A DNA stretch of 34,487 bases from Desulfamplus sp. (GTDB taxonomy: Bacteria > Desulfobacterota > Desulfobacteria > Desulfobacterales > Desulfobacteraceae), in NCBI GenBank assembly GCA_015232455.1, contig JADFZQ010000032.1, positions 1 to 34,487 of the forward strand, in the 5' to 3' direction. Below, piece by piece: positions 13,583 to 34,264 of this stretch. The position numbers were made by a program, and so were the translations under genes. A model generated the notes under the pieces. It saw nothing but the letters and a program-made list of their open reading frames with translations. It was not told where the DNA came from and searched no databases. Each line of letters starts with the position of its first letter. Position 1 is the stretch's first letter.

Positions 13583-13594
13583 TTTAAAATCAAG

Positions 13595-15160: not shown

Positions 15161-16681
15161 ATGCTTGGTAATCAGAATGTTCTGATTATTGATGATCAGA
15201 TCGCAATACAAAAACTTTTAACCTCATGGATTTCAAGATTGGGTCATTCTTGTAAAACTACAGGAACTCTTCATGAAGCCCGGCATCTGCTTAAATATGG
15301 AGATTTTAGAATTGTATTTCTTGATATTTATCTTCCTGATGGTAATGGCATTGACTTTATTGCAGATATTCTTGATAGAAAAATTCCGCCTGTAATTATA
15401 GTTATTACAGCTTCAGCGGAGCTTGGAAATGTGCATAAAGCCTTGATGAAAGGTGCATGGAATTATTTGGTAAAACCATTCTCAATGGTAGATGTTAATA
15501 ATGTTCTTCAGCGTGCTTTGAATGTTGCCTTTATAGAGCGTGTTTATGAATCTAAAATAGATATTGAGCATAAAATAGTTGGCTCAAGCAAAAATATCAT
15601 TCAATCTGTAAGAACTATGTTTCAAGCTGCTGAAAATGATGCCCCTGTTCTTATTACAGGTGCTTCTGGCACAGGCAAAGAGATGTTTGCCAATGAGATT
15701 CATAGACTCAGCAGACGCTCTGCAAATCCATTTGTAGTTGTTGATTGTGCAATACTTCCTGAAAACCTTGTGGAAAGTATTCTCTTTGGACATGTTAAAG
15801 GGGCGTTCACAGGAGCATATTCCGAAAGAACAGGGCTTGTAAGACAGGCAGACAGAGGAACTCTTTTTCTTGATGAAATAGGCGAACTGCCATTAGAGAT
15901 GCAGAAAAAATTTCTAAGAGTAATTCAGGAGAAGAGTGTAATGCCGATTGGAGGCAAAGATCATATTGGTGTTGATTTCAGACTTGTTTGTGCAACAAAC
16001 AGGGACATAAGGAATATGGTAATTGCTGGAACTTTTCGTGAGGACTTATTTTACAGAATAAATGTTTTTCCTGTCAAGCTCTCTCCATTAAATGAGCGTC
16101 AAGAAGATATACGGATTCTGGCAGAATTTTTTATAGCACAGATATGCAAGCAGCATTCGCTTGAAGTGAGAGTTTGTTCATCTGAATTTATTGTTGCTAT
16201 TGAACTGTATAATTGGCCCGGAAATGTCAGGGAACTTAAAAATGTTTTTGAGAAAATTATTCTAACTTCCAAAGAGAAAGTTATCTATCCTGACCATCTT
16301 CCAGAAAATATACGCGAATATATAATACAACAGAATATATTGAATAATTTGTCAAACACACTGATTCCAAGTTTACCTGCTTATTCAAAATATCCAAAAA
16401 ACGATGATACTAACAATATTGAGCATGAATTACATTCTGAAATAAAACCAAATAAAGATTATGAGGCTGATCTAAATTTAGCAAAAAACATTACCATGCC
16501 AATTATAAAATCTGTGCGTGAAAAGGCAATATCAGAAGCTGAACAAAATTATTTAAAGGAGTTGATAAGATTTACTAATGGAAATACAGCCGAAGCAATA
16601 AAGATATCAGGTCTTGCAAAATCTCAATTCTATCGCCTTCTAAAAAAATATAACATAACCAAACTTTTTAATATAAGTTAG
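15161..16681 (+). CDS. Sigma-54-dependent response regulator (NtrC family)
   Basis: The 506 residues comprise a receiver domain (1-125; phospho-acceptor Asp55 in VFLDIYLPD, Lys in VKPFS), an AAA+ sigma-54 domain (about 142-375; Walker A GASGTGKE, the sigma-54 loop GAFTGAYSE, Walker B LFLDEIGELP, and the NWPGNVREL segment), a 70-residue linker, and a Fis-type helix-turn-helix at the end (GNTAEAIKISGLAKSQFYRLLKK). It should open sigma-54 promoters when phosphorylated. The obvious target is the -24/-12 promoter at 16801, just downstream. No kinase gene is adjacent; the soluble histidine kinase at 25851 is a candidate partner. GGTGAGG precedes the start. Confidence 0.95.
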   Translation: MLGNQNVLIIDDQIAIQKLLTSWISRLGHSCKTTGTLHEARHLLKYGDFRIVFLDIYLPDGNGIDFIADILDRKIPPVIIVITASAELGNVHKALMKGAWNYLVKPFSMVDVNNVLQRALNVAFIERVYESKIDIEHKIVGSSKNIIQSVRTMFQAAENDAPVLITGASGTGKEMFANEIHRLSRRSANPFVVVDCAILPENLVESILFGHVKGAFTGAYSERTGLVRQADRGTLFLDEIGELPLEMQKKFLRVIQEKSVMPIGGKDHIGVDFRLVCATNRDIRNMVIAGTFREDLFYRINVFPVKLSPLNERQEDIRILAEFFIAQICKQHSLEVRVCSSEFIVAIELYNWPGNVRELKNVFEKIILTSKEKVIYPDHLPENIREYIIQQNILNNLSNTLIPSLPAYSKYPKNDDTNNIEHELHSEIKPNKDYEADLNLAKNITMPIIKSVREKAISEAEQNYLKELIRFTNGNTAEAIKISGLAKSQFYRLLKKYNITKLFNIS

Positions 16682-16747
16682 CTTTTTACTGTTTGTATAT
16701 ACAACTCTCCACCGCTCTCCTAACTATTTGAAATATCAGTATTTATA

Positions 16748-16775
16748 GATAGAGATTCACTAAAGAGTCTCTATC
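16748..16775. promoter_or_regulatory. Candidate activator-binding palindrome (UAS)
   Basis: Eight-base perfect arms, GATAGAGA and TCTCTATC, are separated by 12 bases. The centre is about 42 bases upstream of the -24 element at 16801. Position and symmetry suit a dimeric NtrC-type activator, such as the one encoded just upstream. The assignment is inferred. Confidence 0.5.
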
Positions 16776-16800
16776 TTGCACCATAATAAGCGAATAATAT

Positions 16801-16817
16801 TTGGTATGAATAGTGCA
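16801..16817 (+). promoter_or_regulatory. Sigma-54 (-24/-12) promoter of the chemosensory operon
   Basis: TTGGTATGAATAGTGCA has GG and GC exactly 10 bases apart, with good agreement to TTGGCACG-N4-TTGCA. Transcription would start near 16828, about 60 bases before the first gene (16889). A sigma-54 activator gene ends 120 bases upstream. Confidence 0.65.
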
Positions 16818-16888: not shown

Positions 16889-17365
16889 ATGCTTCTATAC
16901 TATGAAAATGGTAATGGTTATAAAAATGATGTTAGCAATAAATGTATAGAACAATATTCTAACATAAACTTAAGTTTAGCTGATATTATTGAAGCAGAAT
17001 GCGAAAAAGTTGATTTCTTTGATAAATTAGACCTTTTAATAAACCGTATTCAACACACAGTCTATGATATTGCGGGTATAATTATTGTTTTGGATAACAA
17101 AAATGAACTCGATATTCTCCTTAGTTATAAAAATCTCTTTGATGATATTTACATTTTGCTGATACTTCTTGGGGAAAATCCTGCAATGTTCACAAAGTCC
17201 CTTGAATTAAGACCAAGATATATAGTTTACTGGAAAAAAGAGAAAAAAGAAATTATAGCCATACTTCATAATTTTGTCCGTATTATAAAGAAGAGAAACC
17301 TTCTTACAAATCCAAATGCTCTTAGGCATATTTTCATGCCAAAGAATGGGATAAGTAATAAGTGA
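16889..17365 (+). CDS. Hypothetical protein, degenerate receiver-like
   Basis: This 158-residue, AT-rich product is not assigned to a family with confidence. Its middle (IAGIIIVLDNKNELDILLSY, IYILLILLGENPAMFTKSLE, RYIVYWKKEKKEIIAILHNF) has the alternating hydrophobic-strand and helix pattern of a receiver domain. LVLDN-like and IVYWKK-like segments stand where the phospho-aspartate and conserved lysine strands would be, but the acidic pocket is absent. It is the first gene after the sigma-54 promoter and overlaps parA by 4 bases (GTGA), so translation is coupled. An adaptor or array-specific partner of ParA is possible. Confidence 0.65.
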   Translation: MLLYYENGNGYKNDVSNKCIEQYSNINLSLADIIEAECEKVDFFDKLDLLINRIQHTVYDIAGIIIVLDNKNELDILLSYKNLFDDIYILLILLGENPAMFTKSLELRPRYIVYWKKEKKEIIAILHNFVRIIKKRNLLTNPNALRHIFMPKNGISNK

Positions 17366-18192
17366 CAAGATATATTGTATTTGCAAATAGAAAAGGCGGA
17401 TGCGGGAAAACAACAACTGCTGTAAATATTGCGTGTATATTTTCAATCAAAAACAAAAAGGTTCTTCTTGTTGACCTTGACCCTCAAGCACATGCGACCC
17501 TCTCTTTACGCATAAACCCTGATCCTGAAAAGCCAAATATCTATAACTTGTTGGATAAAAAAGCATCGTTTAAAGAGGTTATCCAGCAAGTGATTACAAC
17601 CCCAAAGATAAACTGCCACTCAATAACTAATAAAAATGATGAAAAACGGGAAAAATCTCGATCAAAGAATTTATATATTATTCCCTCATCGCGTAATCTG
17701 TCTGTTGTTGAGATGAATGCCCCAAGATTTTCAGGTGATGAACTCTATCTTGCTGAGATACTCCACAATAATGCTTCTGAATTTGATTATGTTATAATAG
17801 ACCCTCCACCGTCAGTTGGAATATTGTCTGTATCAGCACTTGTTGCAGCAAAAGAGGCATATATTCCAATGCCCATGCACTTTCTTGCAATGGAAGGTCT
17901 TGCAGAGATGACACGCCTTATTTATCAAATAAATGCGACATGGAATCCAGAGTTAAAGCTATGCGGTATTATTCCCACCTTTTATAACAAAAACACCCGT
18001 ATCACAAAAGAGATTGCCTCAGATATTGTTAATACCTTTGGAACAGGAAGGCTTGCCCCTCCGATTCGCCAAAATGTAGCTTTAGCAGAAGCGCCTGGAC
18101 ATGGCTGTTCAATATTTGAGTATGCCCCAGACAGTATTGGTGCAGAAGATTATGAGACATTAGCCATGTTTATTGAAAATAATGTTAAGTAA
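17362..18192 (+). CDS. parA: ParA/MinD-type ATPase of the chemosensory cluster
   Basis: The 276 residues begin (GTG) MTRYIVFANRKGGCGKTTT, with the deviant Walker A KGGCGKTT of ParA. VLLVDLDPQAHAT (switch I) and VIIDPPPSVG (Walker B) follow, then FYNKNTRITKEI and the C-terminal part typical of the family. Linker residues 85-105 are rich in charge. ParA homologues in chemosensory operons (ParC in Vibrio, PpfA in Rhodobacter) position polar or cytoplasmic receptor arrays and secure their inheritance. No ParB and no parS-like site are seen, which argues against plasmid or chromosome partition. The soluble receptor encoded downstream supports a role in placing a cytoplasmic array. Confidence 0.93.
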   Translation: MTRYIVFANRKGGCGKTTTAVNIACIFSIKNKKVLLVDLDPQAHATLSLRINPDPEKPNIYNLLDKKASFKEVIQQVITTPKINCHSITNKNDEKREKSRSKNLYIIPSSRNLSVVEMNAPRFSGDELYLAEILHNNASEFDYVIIDPPPSVGILSVSALVAAKEAYIPMPMHFLAMEGLAEMTRLIYQINATWNPELKLCGIIPTFYNKNTRITKEIASDIVNTFGTGRLAPPIRQNVALAEAPGHGCSIFEYAPDSIGAEDYETLAMFIENNVK

Positions 18193-18263: not shown

Positions 18264-18683
18264 ATGAGCGAAAAAACAGATAATCGTGAATTTCTAAAAA
18301 GAACAACTCTTCAGGATTTGCTCAATCAGAAAAATGTCCTGACACCCTTAGATAATCCACAAAAAAGGGAAAATTCCCATATTGGCGGAAAAAATTCATT
18401 TTTAGAGGAAAAAACAAGTAAGTTAGAAGAGATTAGCCTCTTCATTTTTAAAAGAGGAGTTAATGAACTTAAACAAGAGAAATATTGCTGTGCCTCCGCC
18501 CTTTTTGAAACACTGCTTACTTTTGAACCTGATCATATAAAGGCTAAACTCAACCTTGCTGTTGCTCTGTCACAGGTAGGTAATAATAAAAAAGCATTAG
18601 CAATACTTGAAAGTGTGCTTGAACAAGAGCCAGATAATGAAGTTGCAATACAAAATATTAAAATAATTGAAGAATCTATATAA
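18264..18683 (+). CDS. TPR-repeat protein
   Basis: Of 139 residues, the first 50 are polar and probably disordered; about 58-137 form two or more tetratricopeptide-like repeats (KRGVNELKQEKYCCASALFE, HIKAKLNLAVALSQVGNNKK, ALAILESVLEQEPDNEVAIQ). TPRs bind protein partners. Lying between parA and an Hsp70-like gene, it could be a co-chaperone-like adaptor, but that is only suggested by context. The start is set by GGAGTAACA-ATG. Two very short open frames overlap the leader (from 18232 and 18248) and are probably not genes. Confidence 0.78.
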   Translation: MSEKTDNREFLKRTTLQDLLNQKNVLTPLDNPQKRENSHIGGKNSFLEEKTSKLEEISLFIFKRGVNELKQEKYCCASALFETLLTFEPDHIKAKLNLAVALSQVGNNKKALAILESVLEQEPDNEVAIQNIKIIEESI

Positions 18684-18771
18684 AAATAAGAATTTCAATT
18701 TTTCTATTTTTTTTGAAAATTGTAATATAAAACATCATAGGTTTTAAAATAATTTAAGTTGGATTTTGCCA

Positions 18772-20301
18772 ATGAAAGACAACATGAAAAATAACGATCT
18801 TAGTAAAGCAGAAGAACATACCACAATAATCGGCATAGACCTTGGAACAAGCAACTCTTTGGTCTCATATATAAAAAATGGCAGCCCCAGAATTATCCCA
18901 AACGAGAGAGGAGAGAGAATGAACCCCTCTGTTGTTCATTTCAAAGAAAACGGTGATGTCATAGTTGGGCAGATGGCAAAAAATCAGGCTGTTATTAATT
19001 CTGATCAGACAGTTTCACTTGTAAAGCTCTCAATGGGAACAGATAGAAAATACAACATTTTCAACAATGTTTATACTCCTGTTGACATCTCAAGCATGAT
19101 TCTTGCCTATCTTAAAAAGAGTGCTGAAAACTATCTTGGCTATCCTGTAAAAAGGGCTGTTATCACAGTGCCAGCATACTTTAATGATCACCAAAGAGAA
19201 GATACTCTTTTAGCAGCACAACAAGCAGGAATTGAAGTTCTTAAACTTCTGAATGAGCCGATAGCAGCAGCTCTTGTTTATGGATTCAGCAACCACAAGG
19301 ATACTAAACTTCTTGTAGTGGATTTAGGTGGCGGAACTCTTGATATAACTCTAATCTCTTATGAAGATAAAGTTTTTAAAGTAAGAGGTGTTGGAGGCTC
19401 AACACGAATCGGTGGTTCAAATTTTGATAGATTGATTGTCAATAAAATAATTGAAGAGTTTAAGCAGATACATGGAATTGAGCTTGAGAATGATAGAATT
19501 GCTCTTCAGCAGCTTCTTATAAATGCTGAAAAAGCAAAGATAGACCTTTCATCATCTAATGAGACTCAAATATTGATCCCATATATTACTGTAACTCCAA
19601 AAGGTCCTATTCATCTTAATATTAGTCTAAACAGAGATGAGTTTGAACACTTAATATCATCTATTTTAAAAGAGATTACAGAGCATATCAAACACACATT
19701 TGAAAATGCAAAGATTGATTATGACTGGGTTGACTCAGTAATACTTGTAGGTGGAAGCACAAGGCTGCCTGTCTTAGAGTCTCTTGTAAAGGAAATGGTT
19801 TGTTCAAACAGTGCATCAACCGAGAACAATGCAGTAATTGAGAAAGAGATAAAAAGAAATGTTAATCCAGATGAGGCAGTTGCAAGAGGAGCAGGACTTC
19901 TTGCTGGTATTTTAGATGGAAGCATAAAAGATATTGAATTCCATGACATCACTGCCCATGACCTTGGAATAGAAGATGATGAGGGAAATTTTATCAGTAT
20001 TATTCCCAAAGGCAGCCTCTATCCTCTCTATGTTTCTCATATAGTTACAAACACAATGGATAATCAGGAAAAAGTTGTGATTAATGTGCTTCAACGTATG
20101 GGAATGGCAACAACAGAATCAGATGAAATAGTCTCAATCGGGTGGTTTGAATTGTTAATTGATTCGACAAAGAAAAAATATGAGTCCAATATTGAGGTTA
20201 CTTTAAGTATAGATGGCAATGGGATTCTTGAGGTTACAGCACTTGATGTTGATACAGGAGAGCAGAAGGCGATTGTTATTACCAACAAAAGAGTATCTTA
20301 A
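18772..20301 (+). CDS. Hsp70/DnaK-like ATPase, truncated form
   Basis: The product has 509 residues against about 630 for DnaK. The nucleotide-binding domain is complete: GIDLGTSNSLVSY (phosphate 1), VITVPAYFNDHQRE, LLNEPIAAALVYG, VVDLGGGTLDIT (phosphate 2), and VILVGGSTRLP (adenosine). The substrate-binding beta part is shortened (about 385-505; EKVVINVLQRM, GWFELLIDS, NGILEVTALDVDTGEQKAIVI) and the helical lid and C-terminal tail are missing. No dnaJ or grpE is nearby, so this is not the housekeeping chaperone. It probably serves the adjacent chemosensory proteins. I prefer ATG at 18772 over TTG at 18766; ATG at 18784 is also possible. Confidence 0.9.
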   Translation: MKDNMKNNDLSKAEEHTTIIGIDLGTSNSLVSYIKNGSPRIIPNERGERMNPSVVHFKENGDVIVGQMAKNQAVINSDQTVSLVKLSMGTDRKYNIFNNVYTPVDISSMILAYLKKSAENYLGYPVKRAVITVPAYFNDHQREDTLLAAQQAGIEVLKLLNEPIAAALVYGFSNHKDTKLLVVDLGGGTLDITLISYEDKVFKVRGVGGSTRIGGSNFDRLIVNKIIEEFKQIHGIELENDRIALQQLLINAEKAKIDLSSSNETQILIPYITVTPKGPIHLNISLNRDEFEHLISSILKEITEHIKHTFENAKIDYDWVDSVILVGGSTRLPVLESLVKEMVCSNSASTENNAVIEKEIKRNVNPDEAVARGAGLLAGILDGSIKDIEFHDITAHDLGIEDDEGNFISIIPKGSLYPLYVSHIVTNTMDNQEKVVINVLQRMGMATTESDEIVSIGWFELLIDSTKKKYESNIEVTLSIDGNGILEVTALDVDTGEQKAIVITNKRVS

Positions 20302-20421: not shown

Positions 20422-22371
20422 ATGGCAAAAACTCTTGCAAAACCGCAAAGCATGAGAACAGGAGTTACGACTAAAGCTGTAGCCGCCGCTGATGAGGATA
20501 TGGGTGTAAAAAGGGAACACGCAAAGCGTGTGGCTCAAGATAAGGCAAAAGCAAGAACTCTTGCAAGACAGCAATCAATCGCGGAACGTCTTGCCACAGC
20601 AGTTGAAGAGATGACTTCATCTTTAGCTGAAGCTGCTGCTGCATCAGAACAGTTGGCAAAAAATATGGAGCAAATATCTTCAGCAGCAGAAGAGTCCTCA
20701 GCAGGTGCAGAGGAGTCAAGAGCTGCAATTAACCAGATATTAAAAGGGTCAGAGATTGCAGATGAAAGGGCAAAAGGGGCACTTACAAAAGGTGATAATC
20801 TTAAACTGCTCATCACCTCTACTACAAATGATATTAATGCCCTGATTAAAGGGGTTATGGACAGTGCTGAGGCAAATCAGAACTCCACAGAGCTTATCAA
20901 AGAGTTAGAAAAAAGCTCTGATCAGATAGGGGAGATTGTCGGGGCAGTTGTAAGAATTGCAGACCAGACAAACCTTCTTGCCCTGAATGCCGCAATAGAG
21001 GCTGCAAGAGCTGGGGAGCATGGCAGAGGTTTTGCTGTTGTTGCTGATGAGGTAAGAAATCTTGCTGAAATATCTGAGAGAAGTGCGAGAGATATAAGAA
21101 ATGTAGTAGATGAGATTCAGTCACAGGTACAGCAGGTTGTGGGCGATATTGAAACATCTACAAAAGATTCTCTTGAAGAGGTTGAAAAGGCAAAGGCTAT
21201 AACATCTGATCTTGGCAAAATTGACGGAGATGTTAAAGAGCTTGTTGACTCTTGCAAAGACATCGCAAAAAATGCCGCAGATACCAGGTCAAATGCACAA
21301 GTTTTTTTAAGCGGAGCTGAAGATATTGCAAGCAATGCAGAAGAGCAGTCAAGTGCTGCAGAAGAGGCAACCAAAGGAGTTGAAGAGCAGAACAAGGCTT
21401 TTACCGAGATGCAAAATGCCTCTGAAGACCTTGCAGAGCTTACCGATGCTTTAAAACACTCAACTGACAGCCAGAAATCAGCCGAAGAGGTTGCAGCAGC
21501 AGCAGAGCAGCTCTCAGCAAGTATTGAGGAGGCAAGAAACTCTGCTGCCCAGATTATGACCGCAATTGAACAGATTGCAAAAGGTTCACAGAATCAGGCA
21601 AAGGCAGCAGATGCAAACAAGGAGCTTGGTGAGCGTTTAGAGAAAGCTGCTCAGGGTATGGCTAAACAGGCAGATGATTCTGAAAAGAGAATTGATGATA
21701 TAAAAGAGTTAGTTGTAAAAAATAAGTCCAATGTAAATACACTTATCTCAAATATAGGGAAGGGGGCGGACTCTTCCAAAATATCGGTTGGCAATGTTAA
21801 AAAGATGGACGAATGCACAATCAGAATCAATAAAATCGTTGAGAAGATTGTAAATGTTGCATTACAGACCAATATGCTTGCTGTAAACGGTTCAATTGAA
21901 GCTGCAAGGGCTGGCGAATTTGGAAGAGGTTTTTCTGTAGTAGCTGGTGATATAAGAACCCTTGCAAATGACTCTTCTGAAAATGCAGAGAAGATTCAGG
22001 ATATGGTCCGCAATATGCAGACACAGATAAATGCTGTATCAAGAGACCTTGAGCAGGCAGCAAGCATAGCTTCCCGAGAGCTTGAGAATTCAAGAAAAAC
22101 TACTGAAAGCCTTGTGTTTATTGAAGCTGAAATGGATGAAGTGAGAAAGGCAATAGTAGAGATAAGCCAAGGGGCTGCTGAATCTCTTGCTGCTATTGAA
22201 CAGGCAAGCAAGGCTGTTGAAAATATTGCAAACGGTGCTGAAGAGGCATCAAAAGTTGCTCAGGAGGCAAGCAAAGCTGCCGCAGAGGGTAGCAAAGGTA
22301 TGGAGCAGATTATGGAGGCAGTTGAGGATATTGCAAGTCAGGCTGATGAAATGCAGAACATGGGAGGCTGA
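20422..22371 (+). CDS. Soluble methyl-accepting chemotaxis protein with two tandem signalling hairpins
   Basis: This 649-residue protein is almost wholly coiled coil and rich in Ala, Glu and Ser, with no membrane segment and no recognisable sensor domain. Two receptor tips are present: residues 172-215 ([20 protein letters not shown], then [16 protein letters not shown]) and 472-515 ([20 protein letters not shown], then [17 protein letters not shown]). Each has roughly 130-150-residue helical legs, as in a full MCP hairpin, and runs such as [10 protein letters not shown] and [10 protein letters not shown] look like methylation segments. The N-terminal 50 residues are basic. CheA and CheW should bind both tips, giving a cytoplasmic array; CheR and CheB are encoded downstream. 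The start has AAGGAG 10 bases upstream. It ends 2 bases before cheW. Confidence 0.93.
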
Positions 22372-22373
22372 TT

Positions 22374-24440
22374 ATGGCTGGTATTGAAACAGTCCGGGAA
22401 CAGAACTTGCCAAACGCATCAAACATGACACCAAATATGCAGGCAGTAGGAACTCAAAAGGTGTCAAATGCCCAGATGGCATCAGATGAGGGGCAGTGTG
22501 TTGTGTTTCAGCTTTCAGGAGAGGAGTTTGCAATTGACATCAATAATGTAAAAGAGATTGTCCGTCTGCCAAATATAACTCCTATTCCAAGAAGTCCTCA
22601 GTTTGTTTCTGGTATATGCAATTTAAGGGGAAGTGTCCTTCCTGTCATTGACACCCGTATCCGCTTTTCCATGAAACCGCAGGAAGTTACAGACCAGACA
22701 AGGCTTCTTGTGGTTGAGAGCAGCGGAGTTCAGACAAGCCTGCTTGTGGATAACGTCAGAGAGGTTCTACGAATAAGAGAAACAGCAATTGAACCTCCGC
22801 CGGCAGTGTGCAAAGGTGTTGAAAGGGAGTTTTTGACAGGTGTTGTAAAGATTAACAAGGGCGAGCGTCTTATAATGATGCTCAATTTAAACGAATTGAT
22901 TGCAGTAGATTTAAGCAAAACAGCATCAAAGCAGGTTACAGCAGGTTCAGTTAAATCAGATTCAGATAAATCAAAATCAGATTCAGTGTCAGAAGAAGAG
23001 CAACTTGTATCTTTTCGCGTTGCTGATGATGAGTATGCGTTTGACATAGCAAAGGTGAGCGAAATTCTTAAAGTGAGCCGCATAAGTGCTGTGCCGAATG
23101 TGCCTGACTATGTGCTGGGACTTTTCACAATAAGAAACCACCTTCTGCCGATACTTGATATGAGAAGGCTTTTAGGGCTTCCAACTCTTATTTCCGAGCG
23201 TCAGGAGATGCTTGAACAGGCTGTTGAGAGCGAGAACCGTTGGGCAGAAGATATTTTAAATTCTCTGGAATCTGGCAAAAAATTCTCTGGAACTTTTGAT
23301 TCTAAAAAGACAACTTTTGGTATATGGCTTGAGAGCTACAACACATCAAGCGTTGAACTTGAACTTGTTGCAAAGAGGTTAAAGAGAGAGCGGACTGAAT
23401 TATACAGCGTTGGAAAAAAACTTATGGAATCAGCCATCTCCTCAAACAAGGGTGCAATAGATTCTGAGGTTGTCTCTAATGCTGATGCACTCCAGATTAG
23501 AGAGCAGTTTAATGCTCTATCAAAGGGGGTTTCAAGCACTATTAAAGAATTTAAAGAGAAAATGGCTGCCCACATTCGTGAAGACCAAAGAACTATGGTT
23601 GTTGAATGCGAATCAATGACAATAGGTTTTCTTGTTGATTGGGTAGATGAGGTTTTAAGAATTCCCAAATCAGTGATTGACAAAACTCCTGCAATGGCAG
23701 CCTCCCGTAAAAAAGAGATAAAAAGTGTTGCAAAGCTCGACTCTGGAGATCGTCTTATAATGATTATGGATGAATCAGCCCTTGTTTCTGAAGAGACACG
23801 GGAGATGCTCTCAGATATTAAATCAGGGTCAGGAAATGAGCTGAAAACAGGCAAGAGTGAGGGCAAATCAATTTCACAGCAGAGCATTGATGAAGAGCAG
23901 ATGGTAACTTTTTCCATCAACAACGAGGAGTATGGAATCAGGATAATGCAGGTTCAGGAGATTAACCGAATATCTGAAATTACCCATATTCCAAGGGCAC
24001 CGCACTTTATTGATGGAATGACAAACCTTAGAGGCAATGTGATTCCAGTTATAAATGTCAGACGACTCTTTGACCTTGAAGAAAAAGAGGTTGATGACAG
24101 AACACGTATAATTATTGTTGATATAGGCGGTACCAAGACAGGGTTAAGGGTTGATCAGGTAAATGAGGTGCTGCGTCTATCCAAGCACGATATTGAGGAG
24201 ACCCCTTCTATTGTTACGGAGGATTCAACAAGCCGTCTGATGCAGGGTATCTGCAAGATCAATGATGGCAAGCGTATGATTGTGCTTCTTGATGTCTCTG
24301 AAATACTTGATCAAAAGGAGCTTAAACACCTTAAACAGATGGCAAAATCAGAATCAGGTGGGAGCGAAAAAAAAGCAGGCGTTGAAGACAAAACAACTCT
24401 TGCAAAAGCGTCAGGCAAAAAACTTGCGATAGCAGAGTAA
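22374..24440 (+). CDS. cheW: Triple-domain CheW scaffold with a CZB-like insert
   Basis: The 688 residues contain three CheW domains. Domain 1 is 38-180 (VVFQLSGEEFAIDI, GICNLRGSVLPVID). Domain 2 is split: 207-275 (VSFRVADDEYAFDI) and 405-475. Domain 3 is 506-655 (VTFSINNEEYGIRI, GMTNLRGNVIPVIN). The insert in domain 2 (about 280-400) resembles a CZB domain (RWAEDILNSLESGKKFSG, TTFGIWLESY), but the zinc ligands appear replaced: His by Glu287, Cys by Thr313, and the two His by Arg340 and Tyr344. CheW bridges receptor tips and CheA; three linked copies would be a multivalent scaffold suited to a two-tip receptor. GGGAGG precedes the ATG, and the MCP stop is 2 bases upstream. Confidence 0.93.
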   Translation: MAGIETVREQNLPNASNMTPNMQAVGTQKVSNAQMASDEGQCVVFQLSGEEFAIDINNVKEIVRLPNITPIPRSPQFVSGICNLRGSVLPVIDTRIRFSMKPQEVTDQTRLLVVESSGVQTSLLVDNVREVLRIRETAIEPPPAVCKGVEREFLTGVVKINKGERLIMMLNLNELIAVDLSKTASKQVTAGSVKSDSDKSKSDSVSEEEQLVSFRVADDEYAFDIAKVSEILKVSRISAVPNVPDYVLGLFTIRNHLLPILDMRRLLGLPTLISERQEMLEQAVESENRWAEDILNSLESGKKFSGTFDSKKTTFGIWLESYNTSSVELELVAKRLKRERTELYSVGKKLMESAISSNKGAIDSEVVSNADALQIREQFNALSKGVSSTIKEFKEKMAAHIREDQRTMVVECESMTIGFLVDWVDEVLRIPKSVIDKTPAMAASRKKEIKSVAKLDSGDRLIMIMDESALVSEETREMLSDIKSGSGNELKTGKSEGKSISQQSIDEEQMVTFSINNEEYGIRIMQVQEINRISEITHIPRAPHFIDGMTNLRGNVIPVINVRRLFDLEEKEVDDRTRIIIVDIGGTKTGLRVDQVNEVLRLSKHDIEETPSIVTEDSTSRLMQGICKINDGKRMIVLLDVSEILDQKELKHLKQMAKSESGGSEKKAGVEDKTTLAKASGKKLAIAE

Positions 24441-25801: not shown

Positions 25802-25850
25802 ATTTATTTAATGTCAGAGAACATCAGAGTATCGAGTGAAAGATAGATTA

Positions 25851-26604: not shown

Positions 26605-27549
26605 ATGAGCACATTCAAAGAGCCAGAGGCATATTTAAAAAGCGGTTCTAATGAACTTAAAATTTTAGAATACGGCATTGGAAATCTTCATCTTGGTATC
26701 AATATTCTTAAAGTGAGCCGTATCCTTGATTGCCCTGAAAAATTAGCCAGACCGGGTGCAACTGCACATGAAGCTGTTGTTGGATTGTTTGAAGACCACA
26801 ACAAGATTGTTCCGCTTGTTGATCTTGGTCAAATATTGGGAGTTGCTTCTGAAAACCGTAAAAGCAGGGTAATTATAACTGAATTTTTTGATGAGATAAC
26901 AGGACTTCTTGTTGACAGAGTTGAGCAGGTGTTGACTCTGTCGTGGGAGCAGGTGGTTGGGGCTGACGAGATTCTCTGGACGCTTGATAATCCTTATGTT
27001 ATTGGCGTTGCCCGTCCAAGTGACGAGCATAATGTGCTGCTTGTTGATTATGAAAAGATTGTGCTTGAACTTGCCCCGTCTTTAAAAGAGAGAAAAGGAA
27101 GAGATAAAACTAAGTCAGGAAAATTTAGCATAAACGGTGAATCATCAGACGAAAATTGTGAGGCTGAAAAGTGGCAAGGTGAAGGACAGACAATTCTTAT
27201 TGCCGAAGATTCAACACCAGTAAGGCAGATGCTCACTTTTGAACTTGAAGAGATGAATTTTAAAGTTATTGAAGCTGTTGATGGTCAAATGGCTTTAGAG
27301 CTTTTTGATAAAAATGATGACATTGACATGGTAATAGCCGATGTTGAGATGCCAAGAAAAGATGGTTTGGCTCTGCTTGGACATATCAGGCAGCACCCTT
27401 CAAGAAGAAGCACTCCAGTTCTTATCTACTCATCAATTGGCGATATAGGAATGAAGGAGCGGGCAAGACTTATGAAGGCAAATGCTCATATAACCAAACT
27501 TGAGATTGAGACCCTGCTTGAAGAGATTAAAAAGATTTTGGGTAAATGA
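26605..27549 (+). CDS. cheV: CheV-type coupling protein (CheW domain plus receiver)
   Basis: The 314 residues comprise a CheW-like domain (about 15-157; LGINILKVSRIL, VVGLFEDHNKIVPLVDL, GLLVDRVEQVLTL), a charged linker (160-190), and a receiver domain (195-314; AEDSTPVR, phospho-acceptor Asp246 in VIADVEMPRKDG, and Lys in HITKLE replacing the usual KP). CheV joins receptors to CheA and can act as a phosphate sink or adaptation element. GGGGAG precedes the ATG by a few bases. With the triple CheW this makes four CheW-type modules in the operon besides the one in CheA. Confidence 0.93.
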   Translation: MSTFKEPEAYLKSGSNELKILEYGIGNLHLGINILKVSRILDCPEKLARPGATAHEAVVGLFEDHNKIVPLVDLGQILGVASENRKSRVIITEFFDEITGLLVDRVEQVLTLSWEQVVGADEILWTLDNPYVIGVARPSDEHNVLLVDYEKIVLELAPSLKERKGRDKTKSGKFSINGESSDENCEAEKWQGEGQTILIAEDSTPVRQMLTFELEEMNFKVIEAVDGQMALELFDKNDDIDMVIADVEMPRKDGLALLGHIRQHPSRRSTPVLIYSSIGDIGMKERARLMKANAHITKLEIETLLEEIKKILGK

Positions 27550-27622: not shown

Positions 27623-28837
27623 ATGACAAACTTAACCAAAGCCCTGAACAGTCCTGAAGAGTCGGAACGGCTATATGCTATCCAAGATATTATTGCCCTT
27701 AAAGACAGCCACAATAAAACTGATGTCTATGCTCACGCTGATGCCTATGCAGAAACGCTTGTCCGCCATTTGGAATCTGATACATCTCAGGCAGTGAGAA
27801 ACAGCATTGTTTATGCTTTGAAACTTATGCCATGCACAAAGGCACTGTCCCTGCTTTTCGAGCTTTTCCAGAACCCTGATGCTTATCTTCGTAATGCTGC
27901 TGTAACCATATTTGGCACAAAAGGAGTTGATGGAGTAGCATTTTTAACATCTCAGCTTGACCATGCTGATCGCGAGGTAAGAAAACTTGTTATTGACTCC
28001 CTATTTCAAATTGGCTCAAAAGAGGATGAGTTTCAAGCTGGTGCAAAAGAGGCTATTCTTGCGATTCGTGCAGGGCTTAATGACCCTTCAATAAATGTCA
28101 GAATTACAGCAGTTGAATATCTTGGTCAGCTTAATGACACCCAAAGCGTTGAAGATATACTTGGTATGCTAAAGAGTGAAAATGACCCTATGCTTATCAC
28201 AGCAGCGTTGGAGACTATTCTTCAAATTGGAGACGAGACAAATATTCAAGATACAATAAAATTTTTAAGCAATAGTGCTTCAGAACCAGACCGGATAAAT
28301 TCAGGCTCAAGTGCAAATGAGACAGGTTCAGTTTCAAACAGGATGAACAGACCTGTTGATATTCTTAAGGTTCACCCTGTTTTTTTACCCGAATTCATAC
28401 AACTGATTGCTAAATGCGGTTCAGTTGACAACCTTATTGGAATAATTGAGTTTTTGCACAGCAAAACAACCTACACAAAAGATATTGTTGCAGCAGTTGA
28501 AAAGATAAAAAACAGATATAACTCTATAGTGTTTGAACCTAAGATTAACGATTTCCTTGTTAATACAATTAAAAACAAGGACATAGATGAAAATTCACGA
28601 TATGCAGCATCTGAGCTTCTTCTTGCAGAAGATGAATCTATTACAAACAGCCTCTCTTCTGAGAATATTTATCTTGAAATCGGGCAGACTCTTATTAAAG
28701 AGCAATCAATGATAGTTACGGCTCTTCGTTTTCTTGCAAAATCAGACACTAAAGAGGGCAAAAAGATAATTGATGATATAAAGGCAGCAACAAAAGATAT
28801 GAATTTATTGGCAATTTGTGATGAGTTTGGTTTGTGA
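27623..28837 (+). CDS. HEAT-repeat protein
   Basis: The 404-residue helical-repeat protein has units such as SQAVRNSIVYALKLM, DAYLRNAAVTIFGTKG, DREVRKLVIDSLFQIGS, SINVRITAVEYLGQLN and DPMLITAALETILQIGD over about residues 1-215. A serine/asparagine-rich break follows at about 225-245, then a less regular helical half. HEAT solenoids are protein-binding scaffolds. Its place between cheV and cheR suggests a structural or regulatory partner of the array; no enzyme motif is seen. Confidence 0.85.
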   Translation: MTNLTKALNSPEESERLYAIQDIIALKDSHNKTDVYAHADAYAETLVRHLESDTSQAVRNSIVYALKLMPCTKALSLLFELFQNPDAYLRNAAVTIFGTKGVDGVAFLTSQLDHADREVRKLVIDSLFQIGSKEDEFQAGAKEAILAIRAGLNDPSINVRITAVEYLGQLNDTQSVEDILGMLKSENDPMLITAALETILQIGDETNIQDTIKFLSNSASEPDRINSGSSANETGSVSNRMNRPVDILKVHPVFLPEFIQLIAKCGSVDNLIGIIEFLHSKTTYTKDIVAAVEKIKNRYNSIVFEPKINDFLVNTIKNKDIDENSRYAASELLLAEDESITNSLSSENIYLEIGQTLIKEQSMIVTALRFLAKSDTKEGKKIIDDIKAATKDMNLLAICDEFGL

Positions 28838-28895
28838 TGAGTCTCTTAAACGGGATTCCAATCTGACAACAGTTTAATGAAAAAGCAGCTTGAAT

Positions 28896-29744
28896 ATGAA
28901 TAAAAAAATATCACATTCCATGAACATGAATGAGTTTGAGGTTTTGACTGGATTTATCTACCGAAAAACAGGTATCCGTTTGGAATCCCAAAAACTATAT
29001 TTTTTAAATACAAGAATAAACAAACGAATTGAATCTATAGGAGCAGAATCTATTGCAGACTACATAAGGGTATTAAGATTTGCTGATCCTAATGGCACAG
29101 AATTTCAATATCTTGTTAATCTTCTTACAGTAAATGAGACCTATTTTTTCCGTGATTTTCCACAGCTTCAGGCATTTGCAGAGCAAAGTCTTACAGAGGT
29201 TGTAGAGCGTAAAAGATCAATAAATGATTTTAAACTTAAAGTCTGGTCAGCACCCTGTTCAAGCGGTGAAGAGCCTTATACTTTAGCAATTATCCTTAAC
29301 GCTATGATAGATGATATAGATAAATGGAGTATTGAGATAATTGGAAGCGACATTGATCAGAATATTCTTGTAAAGGCAAGAGAAGGAGTTTACGACGAAC
29401 GCCGTTTAAGAGATGTTCCTCCTGAATATCTTCAAGAATTTTTCAAGCCTCTTTCCAATGGCATGTTCAAGGTCAATCAAAATATCAGAAATATGGTAAA
29501 ATTTGAGCATGTCAATCTTTCAGAAACAAATGACATTAGAAACAAAGTAGGGTTTGATTTTATATTCTGCCGTAATCTTCTTATCTATTTTGATGATGAC
29601 TCCCGAAAGAAGTTGGTTGATCAATTTTACATTGCTCTTAACAAAGGCGGATACATATTTCTTGGTGCAAGCGAATCTATGAGCAGAATATCAACAGCTT
29701 TTCGTGTAAAACGCAAAGGCGGGTATTTTGTCTATTATAAATAG
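28896..29744 (+). CDS. cheR: Chemotaxis protein methyltransferase CheR
   Basis: About 282 residues. The helical N-terminal domain (FIYRKTGIRLESQKLYFLNT) is followed by the SAM-dependent domain: LTVNETYFFRD, the SAM motif WSAPCSSGEEPYTLAI, IIGSDID, and FDFIFCRNLLIYFDD, all canonical for CheR. It methylates receptor glutamates. The receptor lacks any visible pentapeptide tail, so CheR must bind the hairpin directly. I prefer ATG at 28896; TTG at 28890 or ATG at 28920 are alternatives, and no start has a strong ribosome site. Confidence 0.95.
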   Translation: MNKKISHSMNMNEFEVLTGFIYRKTGIRLESQKLYFLNTRINKRIESIGAESIADYIRVLRFADPNGTEFQYLVNLLTVNETYFFRDFPQLQAFAEQSLTEVVERKRSINDFKLKVWSAPCSSGEEPYTLAIILNAMIDDIDKWSIEIIGSDIDQNILVKAREGVYDERRLRDVPPEYLQEFFKPLSNGMFKVNQNIRNMVKFEHVNLSETNDIRNKVGFDFIFCRNLLIYFDDDSRKKLVDQFYIALNKGGYIFLGASESMSRISTAFRVKRKGGYFVYYK

Positions 29745-29818: not shown

Positions 29819-30190
29819 ATGAAAAAAGTTCTTGTTGTAGATGACTCTCCAGTTGTCCGCAGCTTTCACATGAATATCTTGAAAATAGAAGGTTTTATGG
29901 CAGATGGTGCATCAGATGGTATTGAGGCATTAGAAAAAGTGCTAAACCACCGATATGACCTTATTCTGTGCGACATAAACATGCCAAACATGGATGGACT
30001 AACATTTATTAAGGAATATCGAGAACAGGAGCCAGATGGTCCTCCAGTCATAATTTTAACAACACAAGAAGAGGAGATACACAGAAAAAAGGGCTATGCT
30101 TCTGGTGCGAACCTCTATCTTGTTAAACCTGTTGTACCTAATAAGTTGATTTTGCACATAAAACTCCTGATGGGAGGTGATTGTAAATGA
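29819..30190 (+). CDS. CheY-like single-domain response regulator 1
   Basis: The 123 residues form a lone receiver: acid pair VVDDS, phospho-acceptor Asp52 (LILCDINMPNMDG), Thr in VIILTTQ, and Lys in LVKPV. There is no output domain. The stop overlaps the STAS gene by 4 bases (ATGA), so the two products are probably made in equal amounts and may interact. AGGGGA lies upstream of the ATG. It should receive phosphate from CheA. Confidence 0.93.
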   Translation: MKKVLVVDDSPVVRSFHMNILKIEGFMADGASDGIEALEKVLNHRYDLILCDINMPNMDGLTFIKEYREQEPDGPPVIILTTQEEEIHRKKGYASGANLYLVKPVVPNKLILHIKLLMGGDCK

Positions 30191-30591
30191 AACTTGACAC
30201 AGAAGATAATTCCTTAACAATAACGCTTGGTGAAGAGTGTACAATTATTGATGTTGAGAATCACACTGATCTTTTAAGAGCTATTCCTGACAATATCAAC
30301 ACTATATTCTTAAACATTGATGCCCTTAAAGAGTTGGATACAGCTTATCTTCAATCTATCTATTCCCTTGTAAAAGAGTCGCAGGAGAGAAGTATAACTA
30401 TTCAGACTACAGGAAAAAGCAAGGTTTTCGCTCATCTCTGCAAGCTTTATGGAGTTCAGAGAGTTGCGGCTTTTGAATCACAAAACAAAGATTCTAACAC
30501 AGCAGAGACTCGCAGCCGTGCGTCTCTATCAAAGAAATTATCTAAAAACAGTAAGAACACAAACAAATCAAAAAAACAAAGAGCTAAATAA
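30187..30591 (+). CDS. STAS-domain protein
   Basis: Of 134 residues, about 1-98 match a STAS (anti-anti-sigma-like) domain: LTITLGEECTIIDVENHTDL, then ALKELDTAYLQSIYSLVKE, where the family has D-S/T-x-G-L. Thr at about residue 57 could be the phosphorylation site. The C-terminal 35 residues are basic and low in complexity (SKKLSKNSKNTNKSKKQRAK), with an in-frame palindromic repeat (30504-30527) at the junction. Stand-alone STAS proteins switch partners in sigma or cyclase control. Coupled to cheY by an ATGA overlap, it may be an output module of this chemosensory system. Confidence 0.82.
   Translation: MKLDTEDNSLTITLGEECTIIDVENHTDLLRAIPDNINTIFLNIDALKELDTAYLQSIYSLVKESQERSITIQTTGKSKVFAHLCKLYGVQRVAAFESQNKDSNTAETRSRASLSKKLSKNSKNTNKSKKQRAK
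30504..30527. repeat. In-gene palindromic repeat, copy A (STAS gene)
   Basis: Arms AGAGA...CGCA and TGCG...TCTCT enclose a GCCG loop, with a two-base bulge. It encodes the peptide ETRSRASLS. A close copy, in the same frame, lies in cheA at 32708-32735. Confidence 0.75.
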
Positions 30592-30683: not shown

Positions 30684-31049
30684 ATGGGAAAAACAGTAAT
30701 GGTTGTTGATGATGCCAAGTCCATGAGAGGGCTTGTTGCAATGACTCTTCAAAGTGCTGGATACGACGTTGTTGAGGCGTGTGATGGCAAAGATGCTTTA
30801 GATAAAATAGGTCAGCATAAAGTTAATATGATTATATCAGATTTGAATATGCCTAATATGAATGGAATAGACCTTATTAAAAGTTTAAAACAAGACCCTA
30901 AATATAAGTTTCTGCCAATAGTTATGCTGACAACTGAAAGTGAAGATGCCAAGAAAAAAGAGGGGCAGGAAGCTGGTGCAAAGGCTTGGATAGTAAAGCC
31001 TTTCAAGCCTGAGACAGTGCTTAAGGTTGTAAGTAAAATAATAGGATGA
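30684..31049 (+). CDS. cheY: CheY-like single-domain response regulator 2
   Basis: The 121 residues have all CheY marks: VVDDAKSMR, phospho-acceptor Asp53 (IISDLNMPNMNG), Thr in IVMLTTES, and Lys in IVKPFKP. The gene overlaps cheA by 4 bases (ATGA), so it is the most likely direct CheA phosphate acceptor. Two CheY proteins in one operon suggest an output regulator plus a phosphate sink, or two outputs. A 92-base gap upstream shows no clear promoter. Confidence 0.95.
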   Translation: MGKTVMVVDDAKSMRGLVAMTLQSAGYDVVEACDGKDALDKIGQHKVNMIISDLNMPNMNGIDLIKSLKQDPKYKFLPIVMLTTESEDAKKKEGQEAGAKAWIVKPFKPETVLKVVSKIIG

Positions 31050-34000
31050 CAAATAAAAAACAGGATTCAGATAATATGACACAGGATAATTTCATCGACC
31101 ATTTCAGGCAGGAGTTCTTTCAAGAAGCAAGAGAGATTCTTGAAAACATATCTGATGATATATTGAAACTTGAAGCAGACCCTGAAAATGATGAGCTGCT
31201 GAATTCTGTTTTTAGAGGAATCCATACAATAAAGGGAAGTGCAGGTTCATTTGAACTTGGGATTATATCTGATTTTACACACCATTTAGAGGGGCTTTTA
31301 AATTCTCTCCGCGATAAAAAAATCTCCTTGTCTCCAGATATGGTTGATGTGATTCTTTCTGGTTCTGATGAGATTTCCAGCATGATTGATATGTGTGCTA
31401 ATGGCGAAACTCCAGAGCTTAACAATGAGCTTATTGAGAGAATTGCAGCCTGTCTTGAAAAAGAATCATTGGATAGCCAAGAGAAGGTGCAAGATAAAGT
31501 AGATGTTGAACAAGATAATTCAGAAATTTTATCAAATTCTAAATCAACAAGCTCTGAACCTTCAAGTTCTGAATCATCAGCTTCCCAATCATCATCTTTT
31601 GAAATAAAAAAAGGAGCAATCCCTGATCAATTTTATGACTCTTTTCTACAACGGTCAAATAATGGCGATAATATCTTTAAAATCACACTAAAATACACAT
31701 CAGCACACTTTGAAAACGGCTATGATCCTTTGGTATTTTTGACAAATCTATATGAATCCTCCTCTCTTTACAATCCGGTTCTGGAAAATTCAAACCCTGT
31801 GCCTCCGCTTAATGATTTTGAGCCTTTACATCTCTATCTTGACCCGATTATCTATGTTGCAACTTCAATGACATCAAAAGAAGTTTATGAACTTGTTTTT
31901 GATGAAGAGCTTATTTATGTTGAAGAACTTTTGGAGCATGATTCTTCTCAATCTACTCAATCATCAAAATCTGCTGGCTCTATAGAAGATGTTATAAGAA
32001 ACAGTGAGGCAATGTCAGAGTTTATAGAAGGCTCTCTTGATATGCTCCAAACTGCTGAAAAGGCAGTAATGGAATATGAAAACAGTGCCTCTGCCTCTGC
32101 ATTAGATGAGCTTTTTAGAGTGGTTCACAATATAAAAGGTGATTCAGATTTAATGGGTTTTAAAGACCTTGTTACCTTTACCCATGCTTTTGAATCTGTG
32201 CTTGACCTTTTAAGAACCAATAAACTTCAACGCTCTCAGGCTGTTGTTGAGCTTGCACTTCAATCAGTAGATTTTATAAAAGGGGCTTTTGCAGATATTG
32301 AGGCACAAAAAACTATCCGTTCACACAGCCAGCTTTATAAACAGATAAGGTATTATCTTGACTCTAATAAAACCGCAGACAACAAACACTTATCAAGAAT
32401 AAATTTACAAGACACTAAACACTCCAACTCCAAAGAGCTGAACTTTAATGATTCAGCCGTTCAGCCAGTTTTTGTCGCAGCAGATAAAGAACTTCACGAT
32501 GTCTATATTGAGGAGGTTCTTCAATTTAAGGCGATTCTGATTCAGTGGATGGATAATTTACATGTTTCAGATTCAAAAATAAGCCTTATTTTGCTTAACT
32601 CCATAAAACGGACACTCAAGGATATTATAAAAGCATCTGCAACTGTTGGTCATAAATCTTTAGAGCAGATTGCTTCAGATGCCTTTTCAGCAGTCAATTT
32701 AATCACAGTAGAGACGCACAGCCGTGCATCTCTACCAATAGCAAACACCACTCAAGCATCAAAAGAGCCTCAAGAGGATAAAATAACAGATAGTATAAAC
32801 ATAGTAATTGATACTATGGGCGAACTTTTTGGAGAGCCAAAAAAGATAGGTGAAATACTTCTTGAGTCTGGCAAAATAAAAGAAGAGGACTTACATTCCG
32901 CACTTGAAGCACAAAAGCCAGTTGGACAGATTCTTATTGAGTCAGGCAAAATAACCAAGGGGGATTTGGATTCTGCATTAACAAAACAAAAAATCATCTC
33001 CATGATGCCAACGCCCAAAATATCATCATCTGCACAACAAGCTGATGAGCCTCAAGGCATCAAAACAATGAGAGTTGACGAGCATAAAGTTGAATCTTTT
33101 TCAAATCTTGTTGGAGAGATGCTGATAGCAAGAAATACATATTCATATCTTTTAAGCCGTCTTGTCTCTGCCCAGAACCAGAATGAAACCAATGAAATAA
33201 TCAAGGATTTAAAAGAAAATCTCCATCTTTTTGCCCGCCTTACCAACGATGTCCAGCATGGTGTTGTATCTCTTAGAATGATTCCCATTAAAGGTATTTT
33301 CCAGAAATTTTCAAGGGTTGTAAGGGATATAAGCAGAAAACAGAACAAGATGATTAATATAATGACTGATGGAGAGGATATTGAGATAGACAAAAAAGTT
33401 GCTGATGTTCTCTCTGACCCGCTTGTCCACCTTATCAGAAACTCCTGCGATCATGGCATTGAGACACCTGTTGAGCGTAAAAAAGCTGGTAAAGCTGAAC
33501 AAGGAACAATTCTGCTTAAAGCTTCACGGGAAGGCAGCAACATTGTAATACGCATAAATGATGATGGACGGGGAATCAATAAGGCAAAACTTGTTGAAAA
33601 GGCTCAAAAACTTGGGCTTAATTTCTCGTCAGTCAATGATTCTGGACTTATGGATATTATCTTTATGCCGGGTCTTTCCACAGCAGAGCAGATTACCGAT
33701 GTGTCTGGAAGAGGCGTTGGAATGGACGTTGTAAAAACTACTATCCAGTCTCTTGGAGGTTCTGTATCTGTAATGTCAGAACATGGAGAAGGGACACAGA
33801 TTACCCTGACAATTCCAACATCAATGGGCATTGACACAGTTCTTTTTGTTGAGGCTGGCGGTAACTCCTATGCAATTCCTATCAATTACATCATGGAAAC
33901 GATAAAGGTTAAGCCTGATAAGTTTATCAGGGCAGGTGAGCAGCTTATGTTTTTTTACAGAGGCGAGGTTATCTCTGTCCATTTTCTTGATGAGCTTTTA

Positions 34001-34264
34001 GATTCTGAATCTCTTTTAAATTCTGATTCTAATGAACTGCTCCATGACAGGCGTGATATGGGGAACAATGATATTTCAATGGTGATTATTAAAACAGCAA
34101 GAGATAAATATGGCGTTATAATTGACCGTTTTGACAAGAACATGGAGATAGCTGTAAAGCCTCTGCCTTCAATGCTCTCAGGGCTTGATGTTATAAGCGG
34201 CATCAGTATTCTTGGAGATGGCAGGGTTCTGCTTGTTATAAATCCAGAGCAGCTTGCGGGGTAA
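31046..34264 (+). CDS. cheA: Multi-Hpt chemotaxis histidine kinase CheA
   Basis: The protein has 1072 residues. Domains: Hpt1 (15-140, His60 in GIHTIKGSAG); a serine-rich linker; a P2-like domain (about 190-295); Hpt2 (315-440, His361 in VVHNIKGDSD); a third Hpt-like bundle (480-552) with SIKRTLKDIIKASATVG, where the phospho-histidine is replaced; two short repeats IGEILLESGKI..EDLHSAL and VGQILIESGKI..GDLDSAL (601-646), like the type II secretion GspE N-terminal repeat; dimerisation P3 (about 672-765); the ATPase P4 (N-box HLIRNSCDHGIE, DDGRG, GRGVGMDVV, GEGTQITL); and CheW-like P5 (930-1072). No receiver is attached. The start overlaps cheY; ATG at 31076 is an alternative. It is the last gene of the operon. 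Confidence 0.95.
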   Translation: MTNKKQDSDNMTQDNFIDHFRQEFFQEAREILENISDDILKLEADPENDELLNSVFRGIHTIKGSAGSFELGIISDFTHHLEGLLNSLRDKKISLSPDMVDVILSGSDEISSMIDMCANGETPELNNELIERIAACLEKESLDSQEKVQDKVDVEQDNSEILSNSKSTSSEPSSSESSASQSSSFEIKKGAIPDQFYDSFLQRSNNGDNIFKITLKYTSAHFENGYDPLVFLTNLYESSSLYNPVLENSNPVPPLNDFEPLHLYLDPIIYVATSMTSKEVYELVFDEELIYVEELLEHDSSQSTQSSKSAGSIEDVIRNSEAMSEFIEGSLDMLQTAEKAVMEYENSASASALDELFRVVHNIKGDSDLMGFKDLVTFTHAFESVLDLLRTNKLQRSQAVVELALQSVDFIKGAFADIEAQKTIRSHSQLYKQIRYYLDSNKTADNKHLSRINLQDTKHSNSKELNFNDSAVQPVFVAADKELHDVYIEEVLQFKAILIQWMDNLHVSDSKISLILLNSIKRTLKDIIKASATVGHKSLEQIASDAFSAVNLITVETHSRASLPIANTTQASKEPQEDKITDSINIVIDTMGELFGEPKKIGEILLESGKIKEEDLHSALEAQKPVGQILIESGKITKGDLDSALTKQKIISMMPTPKISSSAQQADEPQGIKTMRVDEHKVESFSNLVGEMLIARNTYSYLLSRLVSAQNQNETNEIIKDLKENLHLFARLTNDVQHGVVSLRMIPIKGIFQKFSRVVRDISRKQNKMINIMTDGEDIEIDKKVADVLSDPLVHLIRNSCDHGIETPVERKKAGKAEQGTILLKASREGSNIVIRINDDGRGINKAKLVEKAQKLGLNFSSVNDSGLMDIIFMPGLSTAEQITDVSGRGVGMDVVKTTIQSLGGSVSVMSEHGEGTQITLTIPTSMGIDTVLFVEAGGNSYAIPINYIMETIKVKPDKFIRAGEQLMFFYRGEVISVHFLDELLDSESLLNSDSNELLHDRRDMGNNDISMVIIKTARDKYGVIIDRFDKNMEIAVKPLPSMLSGLDVISGISILGDGRVLLVINPEQLAG
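32708..32735. repeat. In-gene palindromic repeat, copy B (cheA)
   Basis: Twelve-base arms, GTAGAGACGCAC and GTGCATCTCTAC (one mismatch), flank AGCC. It encodes VETHSRASLP at residues 555-564, in the linker after the third Hpt-like bundle. The same element, in the same frame, is in the STAS gene at 30504. Confidence 0.8.

Follow-up and report, generated by a model that had tools for sequence, protein, structure and literature searches.

The Gene Cluster

The stretch of DNA analyzed here (the window) is an entire contig, C25 (34,487 bp), of a Desulfamplus sp. genome assembled as 4.35 Mb in 82 contigs. At positions 15161-34264 it carries a chemosensory gene cluster that, by its receptor, its CheW protein and its gene content, belongs to class F9, together with genes for a ParA-type ATPase, a small TPR protein, an Hsp70 without lid, a HEAT-repeat protein and a STAS protein. 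In several relatives, F9 genes of this kind share a contig with the genes of an RsbRST stressosome. All 16 genes of the cluster lie on the forward strand with short gaps or overlaps, as an earlier annotation made from the letters of the DNA (the sequence-only reading) had described. The spacing between neighbors ranges from -4 to 207 bases, and coding regions overlap by four bases at 17362 (GTGA), 30187 (ATGA) and 31046 (ATGA).

15161..16681, +, NtrC-type sigma-54 activator with receiver domain (Pfam Sigma54_activat 3.5e-66, Response_reg 9e-20)
16889..17365, +, 158-aa protein, perhaps a degenerate receiver (nothing in Pfam at E 0.1; weak receiver fold match)
17362..18192, +, ParA-type ATPase (Pfam AAA_31 2.1e-43; Walker motif KGGCGKTT)
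18264..18683, +, small TPR protein (Pfam TPR_19 3.5e-9), position shared with several relatives
18766..20301, +, Hsp70-like chaperone without C-terminal lid (Pfam HSP70 1.5e-131)
20422..22371, +, soluble two-tipped receptor of DosM type, K/R-rich N-tail with TGVT (two MCPsignal stretches; alignments)
22374..24440, +, triple CheW (CheW3), insert in middle domain (four Pfam CheW stretches; alignments)
24592..25761, +, CheB methylesterase (Pfam)
25836..26579, +, soluble histidine-kinase-like protein (HATPase_c 6.8e-15)
26605..27549, +, CheV, CheW plus receiver (Pfam)
27623..28837, +, HEAT-repeat protein (HEAT_2 1.1e-21), recurrent beside CheR in F9 clusters
28890..29744, +, CheR methyltransferase (Pfam)
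29819..30190, +, CheY1 receiver (Pfam)
30187..30591, +, single STAS protein, Asp-Thr at phospho-site position (STAS_2 E 0.0012; fold match SpoIIAA/RsbV)
30684..31049, +, CheY2 receiver (Pfam)
31046..34264, +, CheA, 1072 aa: two Hpt domains, MshEN-like repeat, kinase core (Pfam)
34352..34487, no strand, contig end: 12-base CCTCCCCTTGGG, then terminal inverted repeat of a multi-copy insertion sequence

Pfam matches bear out the earlier assignments of ParA, TPR, truncated Hsp70, CheB, soluble kinase, CheV, HEAT, CheR, both CheY proteins and CheA, and alignments resolve the triple CheW into three domains, which the four Pfam stretches cover. The receptor had been called membrane-free, in keeping with the lack of any strong hydrophobic stretch found in its sequence, but its two signaling tips had been overlooked. 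The degenerate receiver fared less well: the 158-aa protein gave nothing in a Pfam search at E 0.1, and the best receiver-domain structure match of its low-confidence model (pLDDT 58.8) has an E-value of 7e-3. A gene at the matching place in Desulfobacter latus encodes a protein with 27% identity, and on the modeled fold a degenerate receiver is plausible.

A Class F9 Chemosensory System

According to published descriptions, class F9 is marked by a receptor with two signaling domains and by a concatenated triple CheW. Both are encoded in the window, in one cluster with CheA, CheY, CheB and CheR, and the system is assigned to F9 on this basis. The receptor, which likely starts at ATG 20422 and not at TTG 20401, shares 97% identity with the receptor of a Desulfamplus metagenome-assembled genome (MAG; L119), and both of its tips are kept in an 11-row alignment covering Desulfobacterota, Firmicutes, Thermotogota and others. 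The F9 member of Vibrio cholerae is described as forming an array of two layers in the cytoplasm, about 35 nm in height and of still unresolved function; deletion of the F9 cheA gave no phenotype in standard conditions, and F9 arrays show up in starvation or low oxygen. A cytoplasmic array, as the sequence-only reading had suggested, fits the locus because the F9 signature proteins are present, and by analogy the proteins of the cluster would build a double-layered one.

A histidine is present in both Hpt domains of CheA (positions 60 and 361). Residues 600-648 score 42.3 bits against the MshEN motif model NF053729 (cut-off 38), with two 24-residue motifs recognized. As published, the MshEN domain, which binds cyclic di-GMP (c-di-GMP) and has already been reported in CheA, has a 5-residue spacer and an RLG start; in the window CheA the half-motifs follow a period of 25 (spacer 1) and start with KIG or PVG, outside the published spacer and start criteria. 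Because spacer and first residue misfit MshEN, we keep the idea that this CheA is a c-di-GMP receptor as a possibility only. MshEN-like repeats occur in several CheA orthologues, with three copies in L133, L134 and L136, and a pattern search found none in many others. D. latus has a second CheA, encoded within 5900-13367 of G015 contig C216 (L042), whose kinase part is 49% identical to that of the window CheA.

A Stressosome Module Probably Linked to the Cluster

The window stops 223 bases past the end of CheA, and another contig of the same genome, C60, opens with genes for RsbR, RsbS, RsbT and an ATPase-SpoIIE phosphatase (225-2870). RsbR combines RsbRD_N (47.3 bits) with STAS, both above cut-off, the module also has a HATPase match, and an additional ATPase domain sits at the N-terminus of the phosphatase. 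Membrane proteins resembling methyl-accepting chemotaxis proteins (MCP-like), a CheX-like protein, CheY and a histidine kinase follow, and no SigB-type output gene was seen in this stretch. C60 starts with the end of an insertion sequence whose opposite end closes the window. This element, which has the inverted repeat CAGGGCTGTTAAGTTC, gave matches at 13 sites across the genome, and contigs frequently end there (window 34352-34487; L051 1-115), and the assembly breaks after CheA because such a multi-copy sequence sits there. The 12-base CCTCCCCTTGGG precedes the element in the window, directly follows it on C60 and directly follows none of the 11 other copies examined. C25 and C60 were likely one stretch, apparently split by the insertion sequence.

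The STAS protein of the cluster is a candidate for the connection. Its label in the sequence-only reading finds little backing in the STAS_2 match, which is weak and below the Pfam cut-off, and is upheld by a structure model (12 relatives, mean pLDDT 77.9) whose best matches are SpoIIAA and RsbV. Asp51-Thr52 is invariant in 12 aligned rows and aligns with Asp-Ser of RsbS and Asp-Ser/Thr of RsbR; among 15 distinct STAS proteins, one (L132) has Ser. From this residue pattern, we propose that the STAS protein may be the contact between array and stressosome.

D. latus (G015, contig 47655 as in L123) has the genes of the window in unchanged order, beginning with the 158-aa protein and reaching CheA, except that CheY2 is absent (158-aa protein, ParA, TPR, Hsp70, receptor, CheW3, CheB, histidine kinase, CheV, HEAT, CheR, CheY1, STAS, CheA), and then continues with RsbR, RsbS, RsbT and the phosphatase; more CheA, CheX and CheY genes come after this module. 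The same four genes lie downstream of CheA in G009 and G288. Among 389 genomes of the order, at least 15 have the CheA orthologue (E<=1e-95), and RsbR is full-length in at least 16 (a score of 161 bits or higher, a threshold chosen once a gap in the list had been noticed). All counts from these genomes are lower bounds: the profile searches scored no more than the leading candidates of each genome (two for CheA, six for RsbR, three for Hsp70) and missed known holders, such as G004 (the genome of L119), which has F9 receptor and Hsp70 genes yet was unmatched in the CheA and Hsp70 searches, and G101, which has the same two genes and gave no match in the CheA search. CheA orthologue and full-length RsbR occur together in at least 12 genomes from eight families (chance 4e-17, ignoring kinship); when G004 and G101 are added, RsbR is found in 12 of 17 F9 holders (p 5e-16, again ignoring kinship). 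In ten of these 12, RsbR and F9 genes share a contig (G288, G173, G171, G117, G015, G009, G069, G076, G204 and G134); the other two are the present genome (G000; C25/C60) and G133, where they lie on different contigs. The Rsb genes do not always stand in one place: they follow CheA or an MCP-like gene, or lie between cheR and cheY1 (G117, G134, G171 and G204). Outside the order, CheA is directly followed by RsbR, RsbS, RsbT and phosphatase genes in a KSB1 MAG and in Desulfosporosinus hippei, and in a Fibrobacteres MAG, which gave no RsbR match, an RsbT-like gene comes after CheA. Stressosome linkage is a variant among F9 clusters, not the rule.

The membrane MCP-like and coiled-coil neighbors of F9 clusters share a feature of their own, a tail ending in [VI]-x-F-F after acidic residues, in 19 of 21 distinct tails; of the two exceptions, one reads VIYF and one is cut by a contig end. 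The set includes the proteins encoded at L051 2933-4120 and 5238-6698, and the second MCP-like protein of C60 has five DDxVTFF repeats. Such a tail could possibly serve as a docking tag. The idea that the membrane MCP-like neighbors are CheZ-type phosphatases is mentioned only in passing: of seven proteins, a single one matched CheZ, at E 0.32 and well short of the cut-off.

ParA, TPR Protein and Lidless Hsp70

The genes upstream of the soluble receptor encode a deviant Walker A ParA ATPase, the TPR protein and an Hsp70 whose sequence stops after the substrate-binding beta domain, without a lid in a 9-row alignment. Its scores lie under the DnaK equivalog cut-offs (473.9 vs 648 and 470.1 vs 822.55 bits). 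A profile of the lidless form matched at least seven of the 389 genomes at E<=1e-170 (the window genome, G015, G117, G173, G204, G101 and G133, the latter via L138 with matching coordinates), and in all seven the gene stands beside the F9 receptor. A search of 103 genomes from the phylum to which a Thermotogota MAG belongs found the receptor in 13; ParA and Hsp70 genes go with it in seven of them, and no Hsp70 gene was seen in the examined stretch of the other six. ParA is encoded upstream of the receptor in many F9 clusters, the TPR gene accompanies it in several, and most clusters examined have a HEAT gene, usually beside CheR. The sequence-only reading had staked its case on whether the accessory genes stay close to the che genes; this was checked, and ParA, TPR, Hsp70, HEAT and STAS all recur there in relatives.

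The N-terminal tail of the receptor may provide a link to the chaperone. A motif of TG followed by a hydrophobic residue, noticed post hoc, is present at 16 of 18 loci with Hsp70 and at 1 of 25 without it, in a 43-row tree set that leaves out same-contig duplicates, fragments, both L140 receptors and loci without a full receptor. A prediction was then written before fresh loci were fetched, G288, G069 and G090 being dropped as the same contigs as the earlier L121, L128 and L137. TG[ILV] was found in 4/7 fresh loci with Hsp70 and 0/6 without (one-sided p 0.049, or 0.030 when the later-added G101 is left out). As a lead drawn from this pattern, the motif might be an Hsp70 docking site.

Gene Control and Neighboring Genes

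The NtrC-type activator that opens the cluster is likely its regulator, and NtrC-type genes lie near some related F9 clusters too. A scan for sigma-54 promoters returned 17 sites against 11.2 expected by chance, with none in 15161-19157; since this count is near chance and that region is empty, no promoter is claimed. Just before the cluster (13507-15134) come a tRNA-Lys (CTT) and an AAA/DUF4143 ATPase, and on the reverse strand at 1267-5938 an FlpD-type hydrogenase delta subunit adjoins a 1380-aa FAD/iron-sulfur oxidoreductase.

Proposed Mechanism and Alternatives

We favor, with moderate confidence, a model in which an F9 array is served by an assembly and positioning cassette (ParA, TPR protein, Hsp70) and coupled through its STAS protein to a stressosome module. 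Two-tipped receptor, triple CheW and CheA would build a double-layered array in the cytoplasm, adapted by CheR and CheB, with CheY1, CheY2 and CheV carrying or buffering the signal and the HEAT protein acting as a recurrent partner. ParA on the nucleoid would place the array through the tail of the receptor or that of the TPR protein, and Hsp70 would gate array assembly by binding the TG-hydrophobic motif of the receptor N-tail. Past CheA, the cluster would continue into the RsbR-RsbS-RsbT-phosphatase module (contig C60 here), in which RsbT would phosphorylate, and the SpoIIE-type phosphatase dephosphorylate, the STAS protein at its conserved Asp-Thr, so that the stress state would set array activity, or the reverse. 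A fuller version is more tentative and stands below an even chance: two of the largest known bacterial sensory complexes would be wired together, RsbT and the phosphatase would switch the array STAS and stress would reset CheA signaling (or the reverse), Hsp70 docking on the tail would couple assembly to folding, and ParA would deal the array to daughter cells.

Several observations weigh against the favored model, which is built from genes, its array, complex and phenotype being predictions. Not every F9 cluster contains Hsp70, STAS or even ParA: ParA is present without Hsp70 in the clusters of G567, G652, G568, L137 and Desulfonema magnum (L126/G171), and both are lacking in the KSB1 MAG and D. 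hippei. The D. hippei cluster has RsbRST with no STAS gene detected, and a Syntrophobacteraceae cluster (L125) has STAS with no RsbR match. Strictly, the tail motif was missed at three of the seven fresh Hsp70 loci (TGM, PGI, PGI), and tree-aware pairs (5 with, 0 against, 2 no difference) yield a p of 0.0625, which is not significant. Receptor tails are K/R-rich with or without ParA, so that a K/R-rich tail is no proof of a ParA partner; its likeness to TlpT and other ParA activators is weak evidence, by analogy, for ParA positioning. The stressosome genes lie outside the window and their joining rests on synteny and the 12-base direct repeat, three other copies of the element being near similar CCCTTGGG-type or reverse-strand sequence, with GC-rich flanks alike. 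Finally, many F9 clusters (Thermotogota, Myxococcota and others) have no RsbRST, and RsbR-type matches were obtained in 7/20 genomes searched, four of them full length.

The scattered distribution of RsbRST also speaks for a rival explanation, namely that F9 array and stressosome are mere neighbors, both stress-responsive and transcribed together, with no protein of one acting on the other. Full-length RsbR occurs without an F9 CheA match in G296, G220, G063 and G193, and the insertion sequence appears to part cheA from rsbR in the present genome. However, the linkage is found repeatedly within the order and also in a KSB1 MAG and a Firmicute, with several gene arrangements, and the conserved STAS residue suits RsbT; we thus hold mere neighborhood to be somewhat unlikely.

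A second alternative takes its model from Myxococcus xanthus StkA, a short (540-aa) Hsp70-like protein that, according to published accounts, works with a chemosensory pathway and acts genetically upstream of the Dif chemosensory proteins. Hsp70, TPR and ParA would then regulate exopolysaccharide, pili or surface behavior and not array assembly, in line with the several holders that have no FliM match. Little credence is given to this alternative, as StkA is described as encoded with stkB and stkC and not beside a chemoreceptor gene, whereas the Hsp70 described here adjoins the receptor in 7/7 genomes.

Output of the System

The sequence-only reading held that the output may not be flagellar, as no flagellar gene is present. 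That argument carries little weight, because FliM is encoded on contig C1 of this genome, but the claim gains from relatives: of 16 F9 holders, seven gave a FliM match and nine did not, several of the latter being 73-91% complete. The nine include two single-contig genomes, G171 (D. magnum, 8,027,777 bp) and G173, and Desulfonema is described as gliding. Because nine holders have no FliM match, the output probably goes beyond the flagellum. It is improbable that the locus is an ordinary cluster for flagellar chemotaxis that carries passenger genes and whose CheY1 or CheY2 acts on the flagellar switch: this view agrees with the FliM of this genome and with a published survey giving a complete flagellar set to 97% of F9 species, but not with holders that gave no FliM match, such as D. 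magnum and G173, nor with accessory genes that recur too often for passengers.

Relation to Known Systems and Significance

The sequence-only reading of the locus as a chemosensory system survives, with its F9 identity and the stressosome module now added. F9 arrays, stressosomes, ParA-placed arrays and Hsp70-like chemosensory regulators are each already known. The V. cholerae F9 cluster I shares the two-tipped soluble receptor (DosM), triple CheW, CheA, CheB, CheR and CheY; compared with its main-text description, the system described here adds ParA, TPR, lidless Hsp70, HEAT, STAS, CheV and the stressosome module. PpfA-TlpT of Rhodobacter sphaeroides likewise pairs a ParA homologue with a soluble receptor with a basic N-tail encoded beside it, but TlpT is described as a classical single-hairpin receptor, with no Hsp70 or stressosome partner in the accounts on which we draw, whereas the window receptor is two-tipped. 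C60 has RsbR (RsbRD_N and STAS), RsbS, RsbT and SpoIIE-type phosphatase in the usual order of RsbRST stressosomes and differs in the likely joining of these genes to an F9 cluster and in the extra ATPase domain of the phosphatase. The oxygen-sensing stressosome of Vibrio brasiliensis is described with a single CheY-like gene beside RsbR/S/T, and its authors suggested aerotaxis as a possible output; here, the likely neighbor is a full chemosensory system. A limited search of the published literature, preprints being outside its scope, found no gene link between a stressosome and a chemosensory system and no report of F9/DosM with Hsp70 or ParA genes.

With genes for a stressosome and a special Hsp70 linked to them, F9 systems gain, in place of a "stress-related" role, named proteins and a named residue for testing, and this linkage is a testable lead on what the poorly understood F9 arrays do. 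If the model is true, a chaperone and a ParA ATPase would serve one signaling array, both in bacteria that gave a FliM match and in bacteria that did not.

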